A DNA stretch of 64,000 bases from Planctomycetota bacterium. GTDB taxonomy: Bacteria > Planctomycetota > Planctomycetia > Planctomycetales > Planctomycetaceae. This document shows, one piece after another, positions 17,383 through 24,120 of the stretch; position 1 is the first letter of the stretch; the number at the start of each line of letters is the position of its first letter. The stretch covers positions 1 to 64,000 of the forward strand of contig VGZH01000021.1 of NCBI GenBank assembly GCA_016872645.1, read 5' to 3'. Made by a program: the position numbers and the translations under genes. The notes beneath the pieces were generated by a model, which saw only the letters and a list, made by a program, of their open reading frames with translations, searched no databases and had not been told where the DNA came from.

Positions 17383-20300
17383 TCACTTGGTACGTTGCGG
17401 TAGCTTCGGCAAGTGTTTCCAGAGATCGAATCGTCCGGCTCTTGATTCGGGTTCTGTCGCCGATTCCGTGTGCGTCGCGAGCCGCGACTCGCCCGGCGGA
17501 TCATGTGCGATCACTTCCAAGTGATCGAACTGAACGTCGCCCAGTCCGTGCATCGTGATCGTCAGGGCAAACAGTCCATCCTGATAGGCTTCGCGGAGCA
17601 TTTCAAAGCGTTGCCATTCACGCTTCTCTTGCCAGTGCCATGCACCGGATCGGCCGGTGAAATTGTCACTCAGAGTCACCCCATCGAAGCTGCCGGTGAT
17701 CGCTGAAGCGACACGGACCCACCCGCTGATGTGCAACACTTGCCCGGCCTGCACGGCGATTGGCGGAGCCGACAACGTGATCAGTGGCGTATCGAGCATG
17801 CTGGGCGAATCGTTGTTGGTGTCGGGAGCCACCACGAGTCGCAGGCAACGGCCGTCTCGTCCTGTTGCATTCAGAATCTGGACCGCAGCACGAACTCCGG
17901 TCGGCAAAGTTGTCGGTGCGGATTGCCACCCCAACCGCAACAATGTTGGGAAGTCGAGCACCTCGAAGTCCCCATTCGTCAGCAAGTTCTCCGAGGCTCG
18001 CGTCGCCGACTTGCCCAGCGTCTCGATCAATCGCCAGTGATCCGGCAGCGTCTGAAAACAGAGCGTGTGCGGACTGCCGACCGGTGACTTCAAGCGATGG
18101 GTCGCTGTCTCCCAATGTGCCTTCTGCAAAATACGCAGCCACTGCATTGCCGTTTGGCTGTATCGCGCTGCTTCGTCGAATCGCTTGCGAAGCTGCACGA
18201 CATCCGCAGAATTCGGCGACTTCCGCTGGCCAGCTTCACGTGCCAGCGCGATCGCCCGGTCGAGCGCATCGCCTGGGAAAATCCCTTCGGCCTTTTGAAT
18301 GTTCGCGCGGGCTTGAGCCAGCAGTTGCGGAGCATCCGGCTGTCCGGCTCCGAGTTTTGTCAGCTCATCGTCGGCGATCTGCACGCGGTTGAGTTTCGCT
18401 TTCGCCAATTCGATCCAGTTGCGGGCGCTTTGAGCCTGCAGGGTTTCCATCTTCCGTTTCAAATCGGCAATTAGACTGGAATCAGAGGTGACGATAATCG
18501 CGGCAGTCGTGTCGAATGCGGGCAGCTTAACTTTGCGTCCTCCGGGGATCGGTTCGCTCGACAAGGGGGTAATTCGCGTGGTGGTGACTTCGTAGGCGAA
18601 AGCCGTTTCGGGGACGCTAGCGACGTCGATTGTCGCACCCGGCGCGGCGAGTTGCCCGGGCACAAATTGGGCGTCGTCTTCGTACCAAATCGGCAGCAAG
18701 AGCGTCGCTTTGTCGGTACGGAACACCGCCGCCTCCAACTCGCTACGAATGCGGCGCTCGCGCAACACATCGGACTTGTAAGCCGCGAGCCTCGCCTCTT
18801 TTTCGGCTCGTGAGATCGCGGAATTTCGAAACGCCACGTCATGCGATCTGAGGTTCGAACCGGACGGAGCCGAGATCGCAAATGGACGTTGCTCGACCAA
18901 CGTCCCAGCGGCAAGAAAGTCCTCGAGCAATGCCAGTTCGGCGTTGAGCAACCCGATCGCAAGCCGTCGCTCGGAGGCTCCTGGAACATTCGCGTCGAGC
19001 GATTCGTTCAACGAAAACCCGAGTCCACGACATCCCGCGGCGAGCGCGCTGTGTGCTCCCAGGAAGATCTGCTCCGGCTCGATGATGATCGGAATCCGCC
19101 CCGCCGCTTGCCGCTGTTGTGCGATGTCCGGCAACGGTTCGGTCGGCAGCCAAGTGAAGAGGAACGTTCCCGGGCGCGCCAGCTTGCGATGCTGGTCCAA
19201 CGACTCGCGGTAGTTCTTGAAAGTCATCGTCGAGTTGAACATGTGCCGGCTGGTTCCGAGCATCTCTGTATTTCGCGAGTAAATTCGCTCGCCCCCTGTG
19301 ACATCAATCATGATCGGGCGGTGCCGTTCGCGGTCAGCGCTTTTCACTTGAGAGACCCATTGCAGCACGTTTCGCTGCGCCTCAGGCGAAACAGCGACTC
19401 CCAAGTTGAACGCCAGCAGATTGTCCCAGACTCGCGGAATCGGCAGCAGTCCGGCGGACTCGTGATTGAGTGAACCACCCGTCGACCCCTGCAACTGCGG
19501 CGGTGCGGCCATTCCCCAAAGTCCATGTTGCTTCAGTGATCGCTGCAATTCCAGGTCGCTTGCTTCTGGAATCCAGACGACGTTGAAGCCCGCATCGCGC
19601 AAGTCCTCCACACGCTCCCCGTGATACGGCAACATGCGCAGGAAGAATGGTTTCCCATCCACCGACAAACGATCCAACTGAAACGACACTGGCCAGCGAG
19701 CAATTTCCTCAGCGTTCTGAGCAAGCTGAATGCTCCTTTGAGTGACAGGTTTCGCGAGTGGTCCGAACTGGAGTTCGTCGATCAGCAACTCGGTCTTTCC
19801 GGTATCAAGCGACATTTCCAAAACGACACGATCCACGACGGCCTGATCCAAGTCGAGGGTCGTGGGCCGCATCTCGGCGCGCAGCCGACGCCTCTCCTCC
19901 TGCAGCGCCTTGGTCGAAGTGCCGACTTTCAGCTCTTGCCAGCTTCCGACTTTGGTGTACGAGTCACCGTATAACACAGCTTTGAGTGGTTTCGCTGGGG
20001 CTCTCGGGTCGCTCTGCTGGGGAAAGACGACTCGCAGTCCAATACGAATCGCGCCGCCAGTCGCTCGCACATGCAGCCTGAGTTTCAGATCGTCGATTGC
20101 CTGAGCCATCGGCAACTCGTGATCGAGCACAAGCTGGGTCGGACTTCCAGTGGTCCGAAACACAAATTGTTCAACTCCATTTCCCCGGAAGGCCAGCTTC
20201 GAGTTGGTCAGTCGAGTCTGTTGCGAGTTTTTTTCCAATGTGGTGTCAGACCGACGCAACTTCCACGAAGGTTGTTCGTCTTCAAAGCCTTCAATGTGGT

Positions 20301-20421
20301 CGTCCGCATTTGCGGCACAAGCAAAGCTCAGGCCGAAAAACAGCACCAGCACCTGAGCCAGCCAACGATTTGGCCGATCAGCGATCGGAAACGACGCTTG
20401 CTGCGTGTTCATTCCATCCAT
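17383..20421 (-). CDS. Large secreted protein of unknown function, possible polysaccharide-acting domains
   Basis: 1012 residues from ATG 20421 (20412 is an alternative). A signal peptide ([21 protein letters not shown]) ends near residue 38. Residues of roughly 40-260 resemble a beta-sandwich ([19 protein letters not shown]), then a region with [27 protein letters not shown] reads like the first strands of a TIM-barrel glycosidase, a helical region follows ([19 protein letters not shown]), and the C-terminus (about 830-990) has another sandwich of carbohydrate-binding type ([42 protein letters not shown]). No catalytic residues are certain. Its stop overlaps the possible GTG start of ftsH, so the two are probably one operon. 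Confidence 0.8.
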
Positions 20422-20775
20422 GGATTTTGCGTGACCGGAACAATCGGACTTTCGCCGGTCAGGATTTGTTGATTTTTGAAACCGATCTGGGTTGTTTTCT
20501 TGCCAAAGAGTTGAACACCCGGAAAACGCAGCACAACCGGTCACTTTGCTGTAAGTGGTCGAATCTACTGGCGTTTGCGAAACGAGCCAAGATGAGGTCC
20601 GCGCCAATCGTTGCGACCAACACAGTCGCGACCGCAACTACGAAATCTCATAACGCATTTATTCAATTATGTTTGCGACGATTCTCTCGTGTAAGACAAT
20701 TCGCTTGTGGAATCACGTCGACCGGCACAGAATCTGAGCTCTTCTTGGCGGAGCAACTTTAGGAGCGTTCGGAGT

Positions 20776-21057
20776 ATGACCACGACACCTCGATTTCCTA
20801 ACACCGGCGAGAGCGACTTGCCTCGTGAATTGGTTGATCTCGCTCAAAAGATCGCTGACCTCCCAGAACCGCTGCAAAAGGACTTGGAGTCAGCCTACAG
20901 TCGAGTCGTCGAGTCTGTTCGCCGTCGTCGCCGGATCCTAGCGTTGGTTCAAGAGGCACTTTCGCAACTGCGGCTCGATATCAAGTACCTGATGTTCGAT
21001 CTGGAAGTGACTCGCAAAGAACGCGACGAACTCAAGACGCAGTTGGAACACGACTAA
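20776..21057 (+). CDS. Small helical protein of unknown function
   Basis: 93 residues from ATG 20776, supported by GGAG at 20771-20774. No membrane segment. From residue 20 it is strongly helical and charged (ELVDLAQKIADLPEPLQKDLESAYSRVVESVRRRRRILALVQEALSQLRLDIKYLMFDLEVTRKERDELKTQL), with a heptad pattern at the end, so a coiled coil and probably a dimer. The RRRR cluster could bind nucleic acid. It lies between the divergent 17383-20421 gene and the menaquinone genes. No family recognised; a small regulator or structural protein are both possible. Confidence 0.75.
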   Translation: MTTTPRFPNTGESDLPRELVDLAQKIADLPEPLQKDLESAYSRVVESVRRRRRILALVQEALSQLRLDIKYLMFDLEVTRKERDELKTQLEHD

Positions 21058-21141: not shown

Positions 21142-22638
21142 ATGATGAGCGGAGACATGACGAGCGATCATCTGGCGGACTGGCTGACTCAGTGGCACGA
21201 TGTGCGTGAGTTGGTGCGCGTGTCGGCTGCAGTGGACGCTGTGCACGAGATCGCCGCGATTACGGATCGCCTGCGAAGTGATCAAGGTGGCCCAGCGGTG
21301 CTCTTCGATCATGTTCTCGGGCAGACGATTCCAGTGGTCACGAATCTGCTGGGAAGCCCACGTCGATTGGCGGCGGCTTTGGGAGTGGGCTCGCTGGATG
21401 GACTGTCGCAGCGACTCGACGATTGGTTGTCGCTCACGCTGCCACGCGGGAAGCTCGATACTTGGAAATTGCTGCCACGGTTGGCCGAGCTGTCGCAGTG
21501 GCCGCCGACTCTCGAAAAGACGGGCCTGTGTCAGCAGGTCGTGAAGCTCGGCCGAGATGTGAACCTCGCTGAATTGCCCGCGTTGACGATGTGGCCGGGT
21601 GACGCCGCGCCGACGATCACTTGGGGACAATTGCACACCCAATCGCCGAGTGGTGATGTGACGACAGCAGAGTCAGGCGCGGACACTCGGCGGCGTGTCT
21701 GTGTTGTGCCATTGGAGGTTCGTGGTCGAGATGGACTGCTGATTCACGGCGATGAAAACTCGGAGTTGTGGTCGTTGCTGGTCGAGTACGGTTCACGCGG
21801 GCAGCAGATGCCGGTCGCTGTCGTTCTGGGGGGCGATCCCCTCACGTCCGTCGCTTCGTGGGCACCGTTGCCGGGGCGGACCGATCCGCTCGTATTCGCG
21901 GGTTTCTTGCGGAATCGACCGGTCGAGTTGGTTGCGGCTCGATCGATACCACTGACTGTTCCGGCGTCGGCCGAGATCGTCTTCGAGGGCTTCGTCGATC
22001 CACAGGCGGCATACGAATCCTCCGGGCCGATCAGTCGTGAGACGGGATTCTTTGGGCCGCGCGAATCGCTGCCAGTGATGCGAGTCACAGCGATCACGCA
22101 TCGCGCGAACCCGGTTTTCCCCGCGATGGTTCCGGGTGCCGCTCCATCAGAGAGTCATTGGCTGGATCGTGCGTGCGAGCGCTTGCTGCTGCCGCTCGCG
22201 CGATTGTGGATTCCGGAGTTGGTTGAGTGGCGCTGGCCGTTTGCGGGGGCAAATCGGCACGTTGTGTTCGCCAGTATTCGCAAGACTTACGCTCAGCAAG
22301 CTCGCAAGGTGATGCACGCACTCTGGTCGTTGCCGCGAGCCGCGACGGCGAAGATGCTGGTCGTGGTCGATGACGATGTCGACGTGCGCGACGAGAACGC
22401 CGTCTGGTCGAGCGTCGCGGCTCATGCCGATCCAGCTCGCGATTTGGTGTTGTGGGACGGACCAGCCGATCCGCTGGATCATGCGACGGCGCTTCGTGGA
22501 GTTGGTCGGAAGCTTGGCCTGGATGCGACTCGCAAGTTGCCGAGCGAAGCAGGTGCGGCTCGAGTCCCCCAGCCGTTACGCTGGACCGCGGAGATCGAGC
22601 AACGGCTGCAGGCGCGATGGCCTGAGTTTGGGTTGTGA
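21142..22638 (+). CDS. UbiD-family decarboxylase homologue with degenerate active site
   Basis: 498 residues, the full length of UbiD (E. coli 497), and alignable throughout: GGPAVLFDHVLGQTIPVVTNLLGSPRR near the start, WPGDAAPTITWGQ, PVAVVLGGDP, PASAEIVFEGFV, VVDDDVDVRDENAVWS, and LGLDATRKLPSE at the end. Family members decarboxylate aromatic acids with prenylated FMN made by UbiX, whose gene is two downstream. However, where E. coli has NLGIYR, this protein has RVCVVP (about 185-190), and where the family has EGPxG(E/D) it has SGPISR (about 294-299); the Arg-Glu-Glu/Asp triad and the metal-binding Asn thus look lost. The aligning was done by eye. It may be a structural paralogue or a decarboxylase of another kind. 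Operon with ubiE and ubiX. Confidence 0.85.
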   Translation: MMSGDMTSDHLADWLTQWHDVRELVRVSAAVDAVHEIAAITDRLRSDQGGPAVLFDHVLGQTIPVVTNLLGSPRRLAAALGVGSLDGLSQRLDDWLSLTLPRGKLDTWKLLPRLAELSQWPPTLEKTGLCQQVVKLGRDVNLAELPALTMWPGDAAPTITWGQLHTQSPSGDVTTAESGADTRRRVCVVPLEVRGRDGLLIHGDENSELWSLLVEYGSRGQQMPVAVVLGGDPLTSVASWAPLPGRTDPLVFAGFLRNRPVELVAARSIPLTVPASAEIVFEGFVDPQAAYESSGPISRETGFFGPRESLPVMRVTAITHRANPVFPAMVPGAAPSESHWLDRACERLLLPLARLWIPELVEWRWPFAGANRHVVFASIRKTYAQQARKVMHALWSLPRAATAKMLVVVDDDVDVRDENAVWSSVAAHADPARDLVLWDGPADPLDHATALRGVGRKLGLDATRKLPSEAGAARVPQPLRWTAEIEQRLQARWPEFGL

Positions 22639-22753
22639 AGAGTCGAGGGCGATTACGGTCCTTGTCATTGAGGCCCTTGTGACCTGAGTGATTTGGAAAA
22701 TCAAAATGAATCGACCGATCCACAAGGGGTCGGGCTACGTGGAAACACACGCG

Positions 22754-23476
22754 ATGACAGTTGACAAATCGGAGAGTCGTGTTCGCCGGATGTTCGGTGA
22801 GATTTCGGCGCGTTACGACTTTTTGAACCATTTGTTGTCGGGCGGGACCGACGTCTATTGGCGTTGGCGAGCGGTGCGGTTGGCTCGGCCGACGGGAGCG
22901 GCCCCGGTGCTTGATGTCTGCACGGGGACGGGAGATTTGGCCCTTGCGTATTGGCGAGCCAGCGGGAGGCGCGTGTCGGTCGTCGGCTCGGATTTCACGC
23001 ACGAGATGTTGGCGCTCGCTCGCGAGAAGTGGGCGCGAGTCCGCGGCGTTGCGAATCCCGAACAAATGCAGTTTGTCGAGGCGGATACTCAGCATCTGCC
23101 GTTCGGCGACAATCAATTTCAGATCGTCTCGGTCGCGTTCGGCCTGCGCAACGTCACGCGGACGGATGCCGGGCTGCGCGAGATGACTCGCGTCTGCCAG
23201 CCGGGCGGCAAAGTCGTCGTGCTGGAGTTCTCGACCCCGACCAATCGATTGTTCCGAGCGATCTACCTCTGGTACTTCCGCAACGTGCTGCCGAGGATCG
23301 GGCAGGTTCTGATGCGGAATCAGCAAGCGGCATACAACTATCTGCCGCAGTCGGTCAGCGAGTTTCCTCAAGGGGAAGCCTTAGCCGATCTGATGCGGCA
23401 GGCGGGTCTGCACAACATCGTTTGGAAGCCGCTGACGTTTGGCATCGCGACGATTTATATCGGAGAGAAATCATGA
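22754..23476 (+). CDS. ubiE: Demethylmenaquinone/ubiquinone C-methyltransferase
   Basis: 240 residues from ATG 22754; an ATG at 22706 is also in frame and would add 16. SAM-dependent class I methyltransferase: RVRRMFGEISARYDFLNHLLSGGTDVYWRW is the UbiE/MenG signature start, VLDVCTGTGDLAL is SAM motif I, FGLRNVTRTDAGLREMTRVCQPGGKVVVLEF the UbiE signature 2, and YNYLPQSVSEFPQGEALADLMRQAG the typical end. It methylates the quinone ring in the last step of menaquinone (or ubiquinone) synthesis; with the planctomycete setting, menaquinone is more likely. Its TGA overlaps the ATG of ubiX by ATGA. Confidence 0.95.
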   Translation: MTVDKSESRVRRMFGEISARYDFLNHLLSGGTDVYWRWRAVRLARPTGAAPVLDVCTGTGDLALAYWRASGRRVSVVGSDFTHEMLALAREKWARVRGVANPEQMQFVEADTQHLPFGDNQFQIVSVAFGLRNVTRTDAGLREMTRVCQPGGKVVVLEFSTPTNRLFRAIYLWYFRNVLPRIGQVLMRNQQAAYNYLPQSVSEFPQGEALADLMRQAGLHNIVWKPLTFGIATIYIGEKS

Positions 23477-24120
23477 CCGCCTGCTCTGAGACGAACACGC
23501 CTGATCTGGTTGTCGCGATCACCGGAGCCAGCGGTGCGATTTACGCGACGCGGCTGTTGCAGGTGCTGGTGAGTTCGGGTCGACGCGTGCATCTGACGAT
23601 CAGTCCATCGGGAGCGGAGGTGCTCGATCACGAACTCGGCATGCATGTGGACCTGGCGACGCTTGATCCGCAGCGACTGTTGGTCAGCGATTCGGGGATC
23701 GGTCCGGTGGACGACGTGACGCCAGGCGAACTGGTTTACCATCACTTCCAAGATTTCCGGGCGGGGATCGCCAGCGGCTCGTTCCCGACGGGCGGCATGG
23801 TAGTGTGTCCCTGCTCGATGGGGACGCTCGCGAGCATCGCCAGCGGCCAATCGACGAATTTGATTCAGCGCGCGGCGGACGTGCATCTGAAAGAGCGCCG
23901 CAAACTGATCGTCGTTCCGCGCGAGACGCCGCTCGGCAGCATCCAGCTTGAGAACATGAAACGCCTCGCCGACGCCGGTGCCGTGATCTTGCCCGCGATG
24001 CCGGGTTTTTATCACGGCCCGACCGCGATTCTGGACTTGGTCGATTTCGTCGTCGGCCGAATTTGCGATCAACTCGCTGTGTCGCATCGACTCTGCAAAC
24101 GCTGGGGAGTGAAAAACTGA
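23473..24120 (+). CDS. ubiX: UbiX-type flavin prenyltransferase
   Basis: 215 residues, starting at ATG 23473 inside the ubiE stop (ATGA) with GGAGAGAAATC just upstream. The N-terminus DLVVAITGASGAIYATRLLQVL is the Rossmann-like FMN site of UbiX/Pad1; CPCSMGTLASIASGQSTNLIQRAADVHLKERRKLIVVPRETPLGSIQLENM is the family core. UbiX joins dimethylallyl phosphate to reduced FMN to make prenylated FMN, the cofactor of UbiD enzymes. Placed with a UbiD homologue and UbiE, so most simply in menaquinone synthesis (futalosine route, MqnM-like), but the UbiD next door seems unable to bind the cofactor, so another UbiD elsewhere may be its client. Confidence 0.95.
   Translation: MTACSETNTPDLVVAITGASGAIYATRLLQVLVSSGRRVHLTISPSGAEVLDHELGMHVDLATLDPQRLLVSDSGIGPVDDVTPGELVYHHFQDFRAGIASGSFPTGGMVVCPCSMGTLASIASGQSTNLIQRAADVHLKERRKLIVVPRETPLGSIQLENMKRLADAGAVILPAMPGFYHGPTAILDLVDFVVGRICDQLAVSHRLCKRWGVKN

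Follow-up and report, generated by a model that had tools for sequence, protein, structure and literature searches.

A probable pseudoenzyme derived from UbiD in the ubiE-ubiX gene cluster of planctomycetes

The prFMN-dependent UbiD decarboxylases share a catalytic R-E-(D/E) network and a set of N/H/E/K ligands of Mn2+ and prFMN. The residues of the network have been described as invariantly conserved across UbiD enzymes; the R173A and E282Q mutants of Aspergillus niger Fdc1 are inactive, and the R175A and E285A mutants of PSC1 retain 2-3% activity, so that 97-98% of the activity goes when the Arg or the second acid is missing (PMC12153358). According to the titles of their PDB entries, the Fdc1 R173A and E282Q mutants crystallise with prFMN all the same. 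Residues N168, H191 and E233 are listed as Mn2+ ligands of Fdc1 (PMC4947166). Homologues of UbiD and UbiX have been proposed as MqnL and MqnM of the futalosine route (PMC4746308). A literature search of limited reach for UbiD pseudoenzymes or inactive UbiD subunits found nothing relevant, which does not prove that none has been published. The gene described here, from a window of 64,000 nucleotides of planctomycete DNA, encodes a UbiD homologue that departs from this picture at the three catalytic positions and at three of the four ligand positions.

Fold and active site of the short UbiD

The open reading frame at positions 21142-22638 of the forward strand encodes a UbiD-like protein of 498 residues (short UbiD), as judged from the ORF call, Pfam, alignment with E. 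coli UbiD and fold comparison. The preliminary description had regarded it as a UbiD homologue from end to end and had proposed a profile search and a structural model as checks; both bear it out. The protein matches UbiD_N (PF20695), UbiD (PF01977) and UbiD_C (PF20696) along its whole length, above the curated cut-offs, and residues 9-496 align with E. coli UbiD (E = 4e-76). An AlphaFold model built from 47 relatives has a mean pLDDT of 90.7 and superimposes on E. coli UbiD (5m1d) with Z = 46.9 and an rmsd of 2.7 over 458 aligned residues. The complete three-domain UbiD fold is thus predicted for the short UbiD. Its score lies above the looser cut-off of TIGR00148 and below that of the MqnL equivalog TIGR03701 (mena_SCO4490; 355.4 vs 495.9 bits). 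By fold and descent the protein belongs to the UbiD family, and the family models would annotate it as a decarboxylase.

The active site does not fit this annotation. In PDB-chain numbering, the E. coli residues N175, R180, H196, E241, E285 and D290 correspond to R185, P190, N206, P249, S294 and R299 of the short UbiD. The NxGxYR cofactor and catalytic loop is reduced to RVCVVP (residues 185-190; 21694-21711, forward strand), in which the metal Asn has become R185 and the catalytic Arg P190. The EGPxG(D/E)H motif is reduced to SGPISRE (residues 294-300; 22021-22041, forward strand) with the loss of both catalytic acids. All three catalytic residues, equivalent to R173, E277 and E282 of Fdc1, are therefore replaced. 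Three of the four Mn2+/prFMN ligands are also gone: besides the Asn, the metal-binding His is replaced by N206 (codon 21757-21759, forward strand; this assignment depends on the alignment) and the metal-binding Glu by P249 (codon 21886-21888, forward strand). The Glu is E241 in E. coli UbiD and, as we take it from the alignment and general knowledge, E233 in Fdc1. The Lys ligand is kept as K381, which presumably corresponds to K391 of Fdc1. The protein thus lacks both the R-E-(D/E) network and the full N/H/E/K ligand set of a prFMN-dependent UbiD decarboxylase.

The preliminary description had assigned P190, S294, R299 and R185 to the lost catalytic and metal-binding positions, and every one of these assignments proved exact. 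The possibility that the catalytic residues had been shifted in the alignment was rejected by comparison with E. coli UbiD and 20 canonical relatives. The flanking blocks ASAEIV-EG, PARD and GLDAT-K all align, and neither the Arg nor the acids are displaced to nearby positions. A placement of the metal Glu in AEIVLEG was also rejected, the correct column being that of SEYAFAG (E. coli E241). Since published mutants of the equivalent residues lose activity, it is very improbable, judging from the sequence, that the protein decarboxylates by the known mechanism.

Distribution, origin and selection of the degenerate gene

All 12 genomes of the genus carry a short UbiD with P190, with I-S-R at 297-299 and without E at 294. 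The changes are therefore not a sequencing or assembly error, and the orthologues with a normal motif that would have pointed to one do not occur within the genus. Most orthologues in the wider family are degenerate too, but with differing letters. Among 43 degenerate sequences, the Arg position is occupied by P (26), D (7), A (4) and others, the first-acid position by A (14), V (6), S (5) and others, and the second-acid position by L (8), R (6), A (6), T (6) and others; three of the 43 retain one of the three catalytic residues. A conserved P/S/R combination, earlier suggested as the sign of a new subfamily, was found in part: Pro190 is common yet not fixed, and the S and R vary outside the genus. 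Nearly all 43 members have lost the NxGxYR loop and the Asn and Glu that bind the metal. Of the 43, 22 retain the His ligand and 38 the Lys ligand, so the degenerate proteins may still bind some cofactor.

To judge by the titles of the named genomes, the family is Planctomycetaceae (Gimesia, Schlesneria). Additional degenerate copies occur in Pirellulales, and relatives from Gemmatales, Poribacteria, Gemmatimonadota and other groups have canonical copies. Two MAGs titled 'Candidatus Kuenenia stuttgartiensis' (L228, L232) carry the gene with 87-90% identity and appear to belong to the window's genus under a wrong name. Another MAG, titled Verrucomicrobia (L254/G370), has two canonical short UbiDs, one of them tight with Gemmatales, and is possibly a mixed bin or mislabelled.

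In a maximum-likelihood tree computed without the two catalytic motifs, the 43 degenerate sequences form one side of a single branch, with support of 99/98 and in 100% of the bootstrap trees, although the bootstrap had yet to converge completely and several terminal branches are long. The branches of the degenerate copies are longer than those of the canonical ones. The sister of the degenerate clade is a lineage with intact motifs (G052, G060, G019, L233). One member of that lineage, G067, retains the Arg and the Asp but not N168, E277 or the motif His. A position of G067 basal to the degenerate clade was rejected, as the motif-free tree places it inside the intact lineage; it represents a second, younger decay, separate from that of the main clade.

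Of the 61 family genomes, 23 have no short gene, several of them with ubiE and ubiX still in place; the role of the gene is therefore dispensable over long times, not essential. No remnants of it were found in five gaps searched in genomes without the gene, and in many such genera ubiE follows the upstream gene directly.

Where it is present, the short UbiD is maintained by purifying selection, but not for its old active site. Its dN/dS is about 0.05-0.14 across at least three genera: the median in the genus is 0.10, compared with 0.076 for the long UbiD described below and 0.059 for UbiE, and values in two other genera are 0.045-0.105. Such values indicate that the protein is maintained. The losses are clustered in the catalytic motifs, where 12 of 15 columns conserved in canonical UbiD are lost vs 21 of 76 elsewhere (p = 2e-4). 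Relaxation is greatest in the cofactor domain: identity falls from 0.58 to 0.44 in the prFMN-binding domain, from 0.59 to 0.50 in the oligomerisation domain and from 0.50 to 0.46 in the N-terminal domain. The short UbiD is thus a homologue of an enzyme that has lost its catalytic residues and is kept by selection, i.e., it has the attributes of a pseudoenzyme.

The second UbiD and the gene neighbourhood

A second, canonical UbiD, for which a search of the genome had been recommended, was found on contig C102 (L001:1063-2982). This long UbiD has about 640 residues, its orthologues are near universal in the class, and the R, E and D are kept in all 48 long UbiDs examined. Its C-terminus is longer by about 150 residues, which have no Pfam match; a short part of them weakly resembles the end of UbiD_C, so that they may represent a domain that was duplicated and then decayed. 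Conserved neighbours of the long gene were looked for and none was found.

The two copies occur in a complementary pattern. Nine genomes have an intact short copy and no long copy (G052, G060, G019, G214, G367-G370, G386; three of the nine were also reached as G371-G373). Of 34 family genomes with a degenerate short copy, 32 also have a long one. The degenerate copies for which no long copy was seen are in G011 (genus), G021 and G023 (family sample) and G381, all of them drafts; G011, G021 and G023 are MAGs that are incomplete or fragmented, and the completeness of G381 is not given. The half-decayed G067 also has a long copy, and the contig that holds it agrees in tetranucleotide make-up with the contig of the short gene (r = 0.96). 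In the tree of long copies G067 groups with G043 and G057, and its long copy may therefore have been acquired from a relative. Such a pattern would follow from a takeover by the long enzyme that freed the short one from its catalytic duty. The support that it lends is strong but not overwhelming because it comes from about two independent evolutionary events.

The short gene lies in an operon with ubiE and ubiX, as the preliminary description had stated. Directly downstream on the forward strand are genes for the UbiE/MenG demethylmenaquinone methyltransferase (22688-23476; profile match and synteny), the true start of which may be a later conserved ATG, and for the UbiX flavin prenyltransferase (23473-24120; profile match). 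The order ubiD-ubiE-ubiX is kept in most genera, whether ubiD is intact or degenerate, and in some (G029, G041, G023) the short copy is away from ubiE and ubiX. Each of 34 genomes has one ubiX gene, second matches being pieces of the same gene, and this single UbiX must therefore serve the long UbiD. Futalosine genes (two PF02621; MqnA/MqnD type) are present in 20 of 20 genomes tested, which makes menaquinone, synthesised by the futalosine route, the probable quinone.

The syntenic upstream neighbour (20707-21057, forward strand) encodes a small conserved protein for which profile searches gave no Pfam or NCBIfam hit. Counted from a conserved Met it has about 93 residues, and it is 55-71% identical beside ubiD/ubiE/ubiX in many Planctomycetaceae. 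Divergent from it, and in the same position across genera, is an ORF of 1084 residues (window positions 17383-20637, reverse strand) without a Pfam match, the product of which is probably secreted. In several genera a transporter of the sodium/bile-acid type lies between the small protein and ubiD/ubiE (L207:5057-6127, L211:4666-5661, L212:4643-5635); the L207 copy matches PF01758, and the L211 and L212 copies are alike by sequence. Two of the five gaps searched for remnants of the short gene have a bile-acid-type transporter in its place.

Possible roles and comparison with known systems

The observed loss of residues, single clade, selection, synteny and complementary pattern with the long UbiD can be combined into the following description, to which as a whole we give a probability of roughly 0.7. 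The ancestor of the short gene would have been an ordinary UbiD of the late futalosine-menaquinone pathway (the MqnL role), encoded in a ubiD-ubiE-ubiX operon. The catalytic network and the Mn2+/prFMN site would then have been lost in one ancestral episode. Wherever the short protein is dead, prFMN-dependent decarboxylation would be carried out by the longer canonical UbiD encoded elsewhere. The short protein would have kept its fold and oligomerisation domain, and would be retained by purifying selection as a non-catalytic protein. That it has no decarboxylase activity and that the long UbiD has taken over are both very probable. Its role is most likely structural or regulatory, as a subunit or scaffold of the late menaquinone enzymes (long UbiD, UbiX and UbiE), a proposal that we make tentatively and rate at somewhat under even odds.

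A rival proposal is that the short UbiD assembles with the active long UbiD and regulates or stabilises it. By analogy with VdcCD, where a non-catalytic protein activates a UbiD (PMC8379154), such a pseudo-subunit is conceivable, and the short UbiD is accompanied by the long one almost without exception, its oligomerisation domain being better kept than its cofactor domain. The assembly is nevertheless doubtful, as the long UbiD works without the short one in 23 of 61 family genomes and its extra C-terminal part may alter the oligomer. The suggestion of the preliminary description that the protein is a non-catalytic partner of another UbiD thus stands as far as "non-catalytic" and the existence of another UbiD are concerned, but the same 23 genomes weaken the idea of a partnership. 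It is rather unlikely, if imaginable, that a mixed assembly of one live and one dead UbiD of different length has been kept across two planctomycete orders, the dead one being needed for cofactor loading or regulation of the live one or for delivery of its membrane-bound substrate.

Alternatively, the short UbiD might be a relic on its way out, kept by inertia, its low dN/dS reflecting the cost of misfolded protein. The clean absence of the gene from many genera, with ubiE directly after the upstream gene, and the longer branches would fit such a fate. This is unlikely in view of the full-length ORF, the dN/dS of 0.05-0.14 in at least three genera, and the persistence of the gene for a very long time, as shown by its presence in Pirellulales and in about 34 of the 61 family genomes.

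It could also be imagined, by analogy with the prFMNH2-binding chaperone LpdD (PMC10865409), that a non-reacting short UbiD holds the product of UbiX and passes it to the long UbiD. The short gene adjoins the sole ubiX found in the genome, and the Lys ligand K381 is kept in 38 of 43 sequences. Such a carrier is improbable, however, with nearly all members having lost the NxGxYR loop and the metal-binding Asn and Glu, and the cofactor domain showing the largest drop in conservation of the three. Re-use of the fold for a different reaction, the other possibility raised in the preliminary description, is disfavoured and a new active site highly improbable on sequence grounds: in spite of the strong purifying selection and the retention of the acids E278 and E282, canonical UbiD conserves both acids equally, the residues at the former catalytic positions change without constraint between genera, and a search for clade-specific fixed columns gave eleven candidates, all already present in the canonical sister lineage, so that no residue is newly fixed.

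An old, selected clade here breaks the published invariance of the R-E-(D/E) residues (PMC12153358). The intact, half-lost, lost and deleted copies form a natural series tied to the presence of the second UbiD, and thus a good case for studying how a bacterial enzyme changes into a pseudoenzyme. The short UbiD may also hint that the futalosine route to menaquinone has, in its last steps, an accessory requirement not yet recognised.

Among described systems, the short UbiD most resembles UbiD/MqnL itself (PF01977, TIGR00148, TIGR03701), with which it shares whole-length homology, the three domains, the fold, the UbiX and UbiE partners and a futalosine pathway in the genome; it differs in lacking the catalytic Arg, Glu and Asp and three of the four Mn2+ ligands, and in its score below the TIGR03701 cut-off. 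The vanillate decarboxylase VdcCD shows that a UbiD (VdcC) can depend on a non-catalytic partner (PMC8379154), but VdcD is a small zinc-ribbon protein unrelated to UbiD, whereas the short UbiD is a degenerate UbiD. LpdD is likewise an accessory protein of a UbiX/UbiD system (PMC10865409); unlike the short UbiD it has an unrelated, Pba3/4-like fold, and it binds reduced prFMN, which the short UbiD is unlikely to do. The alpha and beta subunits of phenylphosphate carboxylase (TIGR02723/TIGR02724) provide an example of two UbiD-like proteins in one enzyme system; the short UbiD scores only weakly against these models.
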